A stretch of 64,000 nt of DNA from Actinomycetota bacterium (GTDB lineage Bacteria > Actinomycetota > Aquicultoria > Aquicultorales > Aquicultoraceae), in assembly GCA_018333515.1 (NCBI GenBank), contig JAGXSZ010000030.1, positions 188,501-252,500 of the forward strand. The letters run 5' to 3'. Position numbers and translations under genes: made by a program. Positions 29,122-32,049 of this stretch are shown piece by piece (position 1 is the stretch's first letter; each line of letters begins with the position of its first letter). Under the pieces are notes generated by a model. It saw nothing but the letters and a program-made list of their open reading frames with translations. It ran no database searches and was not told where the DNA came from.

Positions 29122-30642
29122 GTGGATATTAGAGAACGCTGCAAGGGAAAACAGCCATTAGCGCTGAAATATCGGCTTCTGATTTTGCTTGTCGTCATGG
29201 TCTTGCCATTTGTCGGTTTCTCCATTTATAAAGCATTAGAAATCGACAAGCGCTATACCGAGGAAGCGCAACGGCAAAACATAAGCGTCGCCAAGGGCGT
29301 CGCGCACGAGGTCGACGAGTATATCGGAGCCACCGGCGATGTGCTGATATCGGTTGCCGAAAGCGACAATATCCGTAAACAGAACTTCACGGCGACCAAA
29401 CCATGGCTCGACCGGATTATCGCAAAGTACCCCTATTATCACCTTATCGCGTTTGTGGATGTCCTTGGCAACGTAAAAGTAGCTTCGGTCTCCGACGTTT
29501 GGTCGAAGAGCGAGGACGCCCAAAGACTGGCGAAAACCTTAAACGTCAGCGATACCGCATGCTATACACGCGGAGTAGTCGCCGGCGATATCGCCGTGGG
29601 CGATTTTATGTACAGCAGGATAACGGGCCTTCCGGTGGTTCATGTAACATATCCCGTTTACGACTTTTCAGGAGCGAGAATAGGCTTTATCGCCGCCGGC
29701 CTCGACCTCACTAAAATACAGAATAAAATACTCCTGACCGACTCAAAAGACGTTGTCATCAGCCTTATCGACGATAAAGGCGTCTATATCGCGAGAAGCC
29801 GGGAGCACAAGAAATGGGTAGGCACAACTATTTTCGGAGACGACCGTTTTAAGAAAATGCTCGGGAAAAAAGAAGGCCTGTATGATGCGGTATCAGCGGA
29901 CGGGACGATGCGGATGTTCGCGTTCGCTACCATGAAAAACGTTCCGTGGTATGCGCGGAGCGGTATCGATAAGGACGTCATCCACGAGAAGGTGATGAGA
30001 GACCTGGGCTATCATTTCGCGGTCTTTATCCCGCTGCTTCTCATAGCGATAGCCGGCTGGTTGTGGATAGGGCGAGATGTTAATAGGTTGCACAACCAGA
30101 CGGAACAGTTGACACTGCGGGACCCGCTGACGGGGCTTTGGAACCATAGAAAGCTCGCGCAGGACTTCGAACGCGAACTCAAATCCGCTAGACGAAACCG
30201 TCGCGAAGCCGCCTGTCTTATGGTCGATATCGACCACTTTAAGGCCTACAACGATAACAACGGACATCAAGCCGGAGACGAAGCGCTCTGTTCGGTTGCG
30301 AACATACTCTGTTGCGCGGTGCGCGAGACCGATTTTGTCTATCGATATGGCGGCGAGGAGTTTTGTGTCCTTCTTCCAGATACGGACAAGGCAGCGGCGA
30401 GCGTTTTGGCCGAGCGCGTTCGTTCTAATGTCGAGCAGACTCGATTTGAAGGCGAAGAGAGCCGGCCCTCCGGTTGCCTCACCGTTTCCATCGGTGTCGC
30501 GGCGTATCCATGCGACGCAATCTCGAAAGACAATCTGATAAGCTGCGCCGATAAATCCCTGTATACGGCCAAGAACGACGGGCGAAACAGGGTCGCCGTC
30601 AGGTGCGGATCGGCCACCTCAGACCTGCATCGGGTCGGTTAA
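29122..30642 (+). CDS. membrane diguanylate cyclase with extracellular Cache-like sensor
   Basis: 506 residues; GTG 29122 is used because AAGGGG precedes it. Helix about 18-38 (YRLLILLVVMVLPFVGF) and a second at about 305-325 (HFAVFIPLLLIAIAGWLWIG) enclose a periplasmic dCache-like sensor (about 45-300). The C-terminal GGDEF domain has the active motif RYGGEEF and the inhibitory I-site RETD five residues before it, so it should make c-di-GMP and be product-inhibited. Ligand unknown. Confidence 0.9.
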   Translation: MDIRERCKGKQPLALKYRLLILLVVMVLPFVGFSIYKALEIDKRYTEEAQRQNISVAKGVAHEVDEYIGATGDVLISVAESDNIRKQNFTATKPWLDRIIAKYPYYHLIAFVDVLGNVKVASVSDVWSKSEDAQRLAKTLNVSDTACYTRGVVAGDIAVGDFMYSRITGLPVVHVTYPVYDFSGARIGFIAAGLDLTKIQNKILLTDSKDVVISLIDDKGVYIARSREHKKWVGTTIFGDDRFKKMLGKKEGLYDAVSADGTMRMFAFATMKNVPWYARSGIDKDVIHEKVMRDLGYHFAVFIPLLLIAIAGWLWIGRDVNRLHNQTEQLTLRDPLTGLWNHRKLAQDFERELKSARRNRREAACLMVDIDHFKAYNDNNGHQAGDEALCSVANILCCAVRETDFVYRYGGEEFCVLLPDTDKAAASVLAERVRSNVEQTRFEGEESRPSGCLTVSIGVAAYPCDAISKDNLISCADKSLYTAKNDGRNRVAVRCGSATSDLHRVG

Positions 30643-30764
30643 CACAATTACAGCCGCACAGTTGTCATTGAATCCCTGTTTACCCTAGATACTCTATATG
30701 TTTTGCGATGCTGTAAATATTGTTAACCTGTTAAAGAGCCGACATAATGTATCATAATTACCAA

Positions 30765-30793
30765 TTGTAATATGAACAATAATCAGTTATTAT
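30765..30793 (+). promoter_or_regulatory. candidate promoter of the Sec-like tRNA
   Basis: TTGTAA (30765-30770), 17 bases, then TATTAT (30788-30793). The tRNA's first base is 30799, at a normal distance for transcription initiation. Confidence 0.5.
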
Positions 30794-30798
30794 ATAGC

Positions 30799-30892
30799 GG
30801 GGGCAATGGCGCTGGGCGCTCCGCGGGCTGCAAACCCGTTGGCTGACCTTAAAGCGGTTGGTGGAGGGTTCGAATCCCCCTTGCCCCCTCCA
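30799..30892 (+). tRNA. tRNA-Cys (GCA) with a selenocysteine-tRNA-like architecture
   Basis: 94 bases. An eight-base-pair acceptor stem (GGGGGCAA with TTGCCCCC) replaces the normal seven. T loop TTCGAAT sits on a stem GG-A-GGG/CCCCC with one bulged A. The anticodon arm GCGGG-CTGCAAA-CCCGT carries GCA, so it reads Cys codons. Between anticodon and T arms is a long variable arm, with GACC/GGTT among its pairs. The discriminator base is T, a cysteine identity element (tRNA-Sec has G), and CCA is encoded. Thus it is Sec-like in fold and Cys in identity. Rare minor tRNA-Cys of this type have been described. Confidence 0.85.
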
Positions 30893-30932
30893 TTGACGCA
30901 GGCTTAGCGGTTGCTATTCTAGGTATGATGAT

Positions 30933-31640
30933 ATGCCTTATAATGGAGGCATGAACCACCAAAACGCGAAGTTGCCGGCAATCGTAGTCGTCGCGAAGGT
31001 GCCGGCGCCGGGATTAGTAAAGACAAGACTCATCTCACCTCTTACACCGCGGCAATCCTGCGACCTTTATGCGCGCTTTCTTGAAGACACGATTAAAAAA
31101 GCCCTGAAAATACCGGAAGCCGCATTATTCCTTGCGCTAAACCTGCGCGAGCCGGGCTGTGGTTATAGCGACTTATATAGCTGCTTGACCATTCCAGACT
31201 CAATAACAATCGTTGACCAGGGGAGCGGAAGCCTGGGTGAGCGGCTTGCATACCTCAGCGAGCTGGTCTTCGCGCATGCTGATCGTCTCGTTTTCATAGG
31301 CGCCGATTCGCCGACGCTTCCCCTCGCATACATCGAAGCCGCGATAAGCGGCCTTCCGGCAAACGACCTGGTAATCGGCCCAAGCAACGATGGCGGCTAC
31401 TATTTGCTCGGTCTCGCCGGTCATTACCCAGTTCTGTTTGAAGGCGTCGACTGGTCGACGGATGCTGTTTTCGAGCAGACCTTAGAGCGGGCGGCGATAG
31501 CCCGTCTTACGGTAAAGGTGTTGCCGCGATGGTACGATATCGACGATGCCGAAGACCTTCTATTGCTCGAAAAAGAACTGAGCGAAGACCCCTCGGCCGC
31601 CCCAAGTACCGCCGCATTCCTAAAAAACAAGAGCCGGTAA
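30933..31640 (+). CDS. TIGR04282-type (DUF2064) glycosyltransferase
   Basis: 235 residues; ATG 30933 is used because GGAGG sits too close to ATG 30951, though that start is possible. VVAKVPAPGLVKTRL and FIGADSPTLPLAYI ... IGPSNDGGYYLLGL match the DUF2064/TIGR04282 family, a GT-A fold related to nucleotidyltransferases. Some members act in arsenosugar synthesis; the substrate here is unknown. Directly downstream of the Sec-like tRNA. Confidence 0.8.
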   Translation: MPYNGGMNHQNAKLPAIVVVAKVPAPGLVKTRLISPLTPRQSCDLYARFLEDTIKKALKIPEAALFLALNLREPGCGYSDLYSCLTIPDSITIVDQGSGSLGERLAYLSELVFAHADRLVFIGADSPTLPLAYIEAAISGLPANDLVIGPSNDGGYYLLGLAGHYPVLFEGVDWSTDAVFEQTLERAAIARLTVKVLPRWYDIDDAEDLLLLEKELSEDPSAAPSTAAFLKNKSR

Positions 31641-31761
31641 TACCGACTAGGATGTGTCGGAGATTGAAACACAGACTATCGGATTGCTGTCAGGCGCTTC
31701 TGAGGACTGTGTGCTAGACTCTTGTTATATTACAGATATTTTTCTACCAAGAGGTGGGGTT

Positions 31762-32049
31762 ATGGGAAATCAGGGTAACAATATCGAAGTGAGAATGCCG
31801 GATGACATGCAAGCCGGGGTATTTGCAAACAACATGGTGGTAAGCCACACAAAAGAGGAGTTTGTCCTCGATTTCATGTTTGTTGCCCCGCCGACGGGCA
31901 CCATAACCTCACGGGTTATAGTTACCCCTGGGCACATGAAGCGCATATTGGCGGCCTTCAAAGAGAATGTCTCCAAATACGAGAAGGTACATGGAAAAAT
32001 CGAAGCGGGTCCGGCGCCGAAGCAAAAGGTAGGCTTTCATCCCGAATAG
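31762..32049 (+). CDS. DUF3467 family protein
   Basis: 95 residues. ATG 31762 follows GAGGTGGGG. IEVRMPDDMQAGVFANNMVVSHTKEEFVLDFMFVAPPTGTITSRVIVTPGHMKRILAAFKENVSKYE is the compact DUF3467 fold, whose function is unknown. No membrane segment. Between a sugar transferase and the Sfum_1244-like gene. Confidence 0.85.
   Translation: MGNQGNNIEVRMPDDMQAGVFANNMVVSHTKEEFVLDFMFVAPPTGTITSRVIVTPGHMKRILAAFKENVSKYEKVHGKIEAGPAPKQKVGFHPE

Follow-up and report, generated by a model that had tools for sequence, protein, structure and literature searches.

What does a bacterium that has both an ordinary tRNA-Cys and a complete selenocysteine (Sec) system do with a further tRNA that is folded like a tRNA-Sec and carries the identity elements of cysteine? 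The question is raised by a gene at positions 30799-30892 (+ strand) of the window, by which we mean the whole stretch of 64,000 nucleotides analysed here (GCA_018333515.1, contig JAGXSZ010000030.1, positions 188,501 to 252,500). Sec-like tRNA-Cys encoded by selC* are also named tRNAReC, and their primary papers are reportedly those of Mukai (2017) and Vargas-Rodriguez (2018); the class is covered by the reviews PMC7609411 and PMC11415595. In the first of these (PMC7609411), selC* tRNA-Cys are described as Sec-like, with U73, a GCA or UCA anticodon and an 8/4 branch (acceptor pairs/T-stem pairs) with a bulged A, and as being followed in Syntrophobacterales and Desulfobacterales by a second SelB gene, SelB*. 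Here we confirm that the window gene is a genuine additional tRNA-Cys of Sec-like build, and we examine its relatives, its likely history and its probable function.

A tRNA-Cys with a Sec-like fold

In gene order the locus reads GGGGGCAA TGGCGCTGGGCGCTCC GCGGG CTGCAAA CCCGT TGGCTGACCTTAAAGCGGTTGGT GGAGGG TTCGAAT CCCCC TTGCCCCC T CCA, the terminal CCA being encoded. ARAGORN calls a tRNA-Cys (gca) at 30799-30892 (+), and the Rfam tRNA-Sec model (RF01852) matches 30799-30888 with 48.0 bits (gathering score 47; E 1.4e-6 over 64 kb), whereas the ordinary tRNA model reaches 29.6 bits. A normal (7/5) cloverleaf therefore fits worse and was rejected; a higher-scoring normal cloverleaf was one of the results that the sequence-only reading had named as refuting it. 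The acceptor stem has 8 bp, formed between GGGGGCAA (30799-30806) and TTGCCCCC; the D stem (GGCGC/GCGCT) has 5 bp and a 3-nt loop, TGG; and the variable arm is long, with a 6-bp stem. The anticodon GCA occupies 30829-30831 (tRNA position 32 in ARAGORN) within the loop CTGCAAA, at about 30827-30833, and the discriminator base U73 lies at 30889. The eight-pair acceptor stem, long variable arm, GCA anticodon and discriminator T proposed from the letters alone were thus recovered. The T arm, GG(A)GGG TTCGAAT CCCCC at approximately 30862-30879, does contain the proposed bulge, a single A, but the 3' strand between T loop and U73 measures 13 nt, which makes the tRNA 8/5 plus bulge, with five T-stem pairs and not the four (8/4) typical of the review. 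The minimum-energy fold of the strand is a long non-cloverleaf hairpin (z -1.96), which was set aside because covariation decides the structure. A promoter-like site, TTGTAA-17-TATTAT (30765-30793, +), ends 5 nt upstream of the first base of the tRNA; it is a consensus-scan match only (9 of 12 positions), from a scan that returned 3 sites of this kind where 0.7 were expected in the region, and it carries no evidence of function.

A DNA search gave matches in 16 of 60 genomes, its own included, and 16 matches representing full tRNA genes were aligned for covariation. GCA, the loop CTGCAAA and U73 are invariant across all 16 homologues, which lie within the phylum, and the anticodon arm is kept throughout. 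Standard pairs fill 97.5% of the pair cells in these sequences (99.2% in the acceptor helix), half of the pairs (14/28) have changed on both sides, none of 500 shuffles matched the observed covariation, and sliding the partners abolishes the signal; together these observations exclude chance. The exact pattern CTGCAAA N26-44 GTTCGANTCC, used for scanning, matches 15 of the 36 genomes from the class, with a different odd tRNA as the match in one case, and 30 genomes of a 396-genome sample of the phylum, a few of these being other tRNAs or chance matches.

Several other unusual genes were encountered in the same searches. One is an odd tRNA-Cys (L299:1999-2096; G031:C104) with GCA, an encoded CCA, a long variable arm and a Sec-like 6-bp D stem on an acceptor of ordinary length; another, from a different actinomycetotal family (L301:7746-7842; G319:C40), is a diverged tRNA-Cys of Sec-like build that adjoins a tRNA-Ser and a tRNA-Arg; and two similar pattern matches (L104 and L105, family f23) received no ARAGORN call.

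Host machinery and relation to known tRNAs

The host family is Candidatus Aquicultoraceae (Candidatus Aquicultoria, Actinomycetota), following the NCBI placement of its member Candidatus Aquicultor secundus, which is itself among the survey matches (L172 = G008). The sequence-only reading had suggested looking for selA, selB, selC and a normal tRNA-Cys elsewhere in the genome, and all were found: an ordinary tRNA-Cys at C30:180094, a single CysRS, and a complete selD(UGA)-selA-selB-selC(UCA) operon in which SelA adjoins SelB and the tRNA-Sec (UCA) lies directly downstream of the sole SelB. The window tRNA is therefore an extra one that replaces neither tRNA-Cys nor tRNA-Sec, and we discarded the idea that it substitutes for a missing copy of either. 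SelD, upstream in the operon, contains an in-frame TGA in the customary position, which is conserved in six further genomes. The predicted fold of a SECIS hairpin in selD was no better than shuffles, so a SECIS is not claimed for this gene. This UGA-containing selD, conserved across the family, lies at L226:11506-12498 (minus strand of C23 in the window genome); a plain ORF caller places its start too late, at MGPGDL. In the genome's own tRNA-Sec (L001:1497-1592) the eighth acceptor pair is a G:G mismatch, a trait common to the tRNA-Sec of the family.

With selC* tRNA-Cys (tRNAReC) the window tRNA shares the Sec-like fold with 8-bp acceptor and long variable arm, the bulged T-stem base (GG(A)GGG/CCCCC), the Cys identity given by U73 and GCA, and coexistence with a canonical Sec system (SelA, SelB, tRNA-Sec). 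These structural points support the membership in a reported minor class of Sec-like tRNA-Cys that had been suggested from the sequence. The window tRNA differs from the class as reviewed (PMC7609411) in its 8/5 T stem plus bulge as opposed to 8/4, in its host, Candidatus Aquicultoria, which lies outside the phyla named there, and from the selC*-selB* operon type in having no second SelB downstream and one SelB in the genome. Canonical bacterial tRNA-Sec (selC, RF01852) resembles it in the 8-bp acceptor, long variable arm and compact D loop; the window tRNA departs from it in GCA for UCA, U73 for G73 and a 5-bp D stem, and the genome has its own tRNA-Sec. The tRNA-Sec with GCA of Aeromonas salmonicida (PMC11415595) likewise joins a Sec-like body to a Cys anticodon, but it is a Sec tRNA that reads UGC with Sec, whereas the window tRNA has U73 and coexists with a tRNA-Sec, both of which suggest that it is charged with Cys. 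Allo-tRNAs (PMC7609411), described from the same kind of survey, also have an unusual acceptor branch of 12-13 bp but carry Ser identity elements in place of the Cys identity seen here.

An accessory gene at an exchanged locus

Three congeners have the same gene order and no tRNA at the site. The window differs from them over a segment (30627-31773) that holds the tRNA, a DUF2064 gene (30933-31640) and the start of a DUF3467 gene, between flanks of about 90% identical DNA. Within this segment the DUF2064 protein is 49-50% identical to those of the congeners, as opposed to 84-93% among the congeners themselves; the tRNA and the DUF2064 gene were thus gained or lost by allelic replacement, in either direction. 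The neighbours of the tRNA are not common to other genera, and this lack of conservation led us to dismiss any functional tie to the arginine or DUF2064 genes nearby.

Within Aquicultoraceae, six genomes carry a tRNA of the window type, all with the 13-nt strand and with no SelB* nearby. Four of the 11 sampled members (G002, G003, G004 and G006), close relatives, have a Sec system and lack the tRNA, which marks it as accessory. One genome, G009, has the tRNA in an assembly that contains neither the sel operon nor the adjacent tatC. The missing operon is probably an assembly gap and, with both operon and neighbouring tatC absent, G009 is no test of a tRNA without SelB; in a search run without a positive control, tatC was also absent from G010, which has selB.

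Branch length correlates with a second SelB

A pattern scan of the genome collection identified at least 118 named loci, and a covariance model built from relatives collected about 75 distinct genes among the matches listed. Besides Aquicultoraceae, these searches touched Candidatus Geothermocultor (L138 = G016) and Candidatus Subteraquimicrobium (L203 = G029), of the same class as the window genome, and Solincola (L122, L151, L167) and Geothermincola (L166), of other families of Actinomycetota. Among the matches listed, the T loop is separated from U73 by 12 (8/4) or 13 (8/5) bases, with no other spacing, and roughly two thirds of the collected family, Desulfotomaculum-group members included, are 8/5; the 8/4 form is therefore not needed for membership of selC*.

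What does follow branch length is the presence of SelB*. Among the matches listed, and counting related sequences that are not independent events, a same-strand SelB gene lies downstream of 20 of 24 distinct 8/4 genes and of none of the 38 distinct 8/5 genes whose downstream sequence extends for 1.5 kb or more. Counted by genome within the same listed matches, 11 of the 15 that carry an 8/4 gene have two SelBs, as against 0 of the 35 that carry an 8/5 gene, and 49 of the 50 named genomes with such a tRNA have at least one SelB. This clear correlation of branch length (8/4 versus 8/5) with SelB* is new from our survey, and the contrast between the two types ties such tRNAs to SelB-type factors. 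The distance from 8/4 tRNA to SelB is mostly about 10-150 nt, with 171-500 nt in relatives of Subteraquimicrobium and 1.0-1.5 kb in Desulfacinum and relatives. In a possible twenty-first case (L114), the genome encodes a second SelB, and its coordinates fit a position 1.3 kb downstream if the contig is identical.

In a tree of 69 SelB proteins, 17 SelBs that neighbour these tRNAs form one clan (support 100/100), apart from 52 ordinary SelBs, with members from 'deltaproteobacteria' and Actinomycetota (G011, G013, G016, G027 and G029 of the class, and G037). Clade-specific changes such as L43 to P, V149 to F, A243 to G and D273 to N distinguish them, and since they retain the GTPase motifs as well as the conserved Asp and Arg (D185 and R241 in the SelB of the window genome), SelB* is probably a working elongation factor. 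Two of the 20 SelB* genes, both from relatives of Subteraquimicrobium, have decayed: that of G014 (L234:2786-5200) is split over two frames with much of its GTPase domain gone, and that of G025 (L237:297-700) is a C-terminal remnant only, each beside an intact 8/4 tRNA.

History of the window lineage

The window genome contains no second SelB, and neither SelB nor SelB* remnants were found beside the window gene. In a tree built without most of the T arm, the Aquicultoraceae tRNAs group among 8/4 genes, with supports that are moderate because few sites are usable; a proteobacterial 8/5 gene (L140), from a genome with one SelB, also falls among 8/4 genes in this tree. The window gene accordingly appears to derive from the type linked to SelB*, with SelB* lost and a fifth T-stem pair present; the most economical history starts from a tRNA paired with SelB* and involves loss of SelB* and gain of the fifth pair. 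That pair brings the branch to 13 pairs, the length in ordinary tRNA-Sec, and in one genome (G007) the T arm, GTGGG/CCCAC, is identical to that of the family's tRNA-Sec. Taken together, this suggests that the window lineage switched to the ordinary SelB and shares it with Sec-tRNA. We would extend this only tentatively, and at somewhat less than even confidence, to a general rule in which branch length (12 or 13 pairs) decides the carrier, 8/4 tRNAs using SelB* and 8/5 tRNAs the ordinary SelB; the window lineage would then be a naturally occurring switch, in which, after loss of SelB* and with the gain of a T-stem pair, a single SelB serves Sec-tRNA and Cys-tRNA alike.

A probable role in cysteine insertion at UGA

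As a tRNAReC, the window tRNA is probably charged by CysRS, delivered by SelB and used to insert Cys at UGA in place of Sec. In favour are its fold and identity bases, the complete Sec machinery with a UGA-containing selD alongside a separate normal tRNA-Cys, a tRNA-Sec and one CysRS, and the association of such tRNAs with SelB-type factors in the survey. Under this proposal, CysRS would recognise U73 and GCA and load cysteine onto the tRNA, and the long acceptor branch and long variable arm would steer the Cys-tRNA to SelB and away from EF-Tu; with the dedicated SelB* lost and the T stem at five pairs, the SelB in question is predicted to be that of tRNA-Sec. At a UGA with a downstream SECIS hairpin, Cys would be inserted instead of Sec, which may provide a backup when selenium or Sec-tRNA is scarce. 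A GCA anticodon has no normal pairing with UGA, which counts against UGA reading, as do, against the proposal as a whole, the four Aquicultoraceae with a Sec system and no such tRNA and the G009 assembly with the tRNA and no sel operon. For a Desulfotomaculum nigrificans member of the class, delivery by SelB and not EF-Tu, with UGA decoded as Cys, has been reported (PMC11415595). The earlier view that the role of these tRNAs is not settled thus gives way for that member, and stands for the native hosts.

Among the alternatives, an ordinary minor tRNA-Cys, charged by CysRS, carried by EF-Tu and reading UGC/UGU as a normal isoacceptor, fares best and is still unlikely. GCA and U73, as the usual Cys identity elements, would fit such a tRNA, but the genome already has a normal tRNA-Cys, the Sec-like 8-bp acceptor is conserved and covarying, presence of the tRNA tracks SelB, with many relatives adjoining SelB*, and the relative that was tested does not use EF-Tu (PMC11415595). 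It is less probable again that the gene is a relic of SelB* loss, either unused or retained as a regulatory RNA. Orphan copies do exist, as the intact tRNAs beside a decayed (G014) and a nearly vanished SelB* (G025) indicate, and congeners lack the gene; set against this, six genomes of the window's family preserve all stems together with the anticodon loop and U73, and their T stem shows the gain of a pair in place of decay. Very improbable is a role in which SelB and a SECIS direct Sec or Cys to selected UGC/UGU codons, a kind of recoding known elsewhere from the tRNA-Sec with GCA of Aeromonas salmonicida (PMC11415595), since although GCA pairs with these codons, U73 and GCA favour CysRS over SerRS, the genome retains a standard tRNA-Sec (UCA) and a selD with UGA, and targeted Cys at Cys codons would bring no obvious gain.

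The window tRNA thus belongs to a known, rare kind, selC*/tRNAReC; what is new relative to the reviews is its Candidatus Aquicultoria host and the link between tRNA shape and SelB*. The survey places presumed Cys-for-Sec recoding tRNAs in deep Actinomycetota, in Candidatus Aquicultoria, Geothermincola/Solincola and relatives, and offers a simple rule, branch length versus a second SelB, that is testable with purified components. Cases in which the tRNA has outlived the adjacent SelB* would provide natural before-and-after pairs for studying how elongation factors choose their tRNAs.
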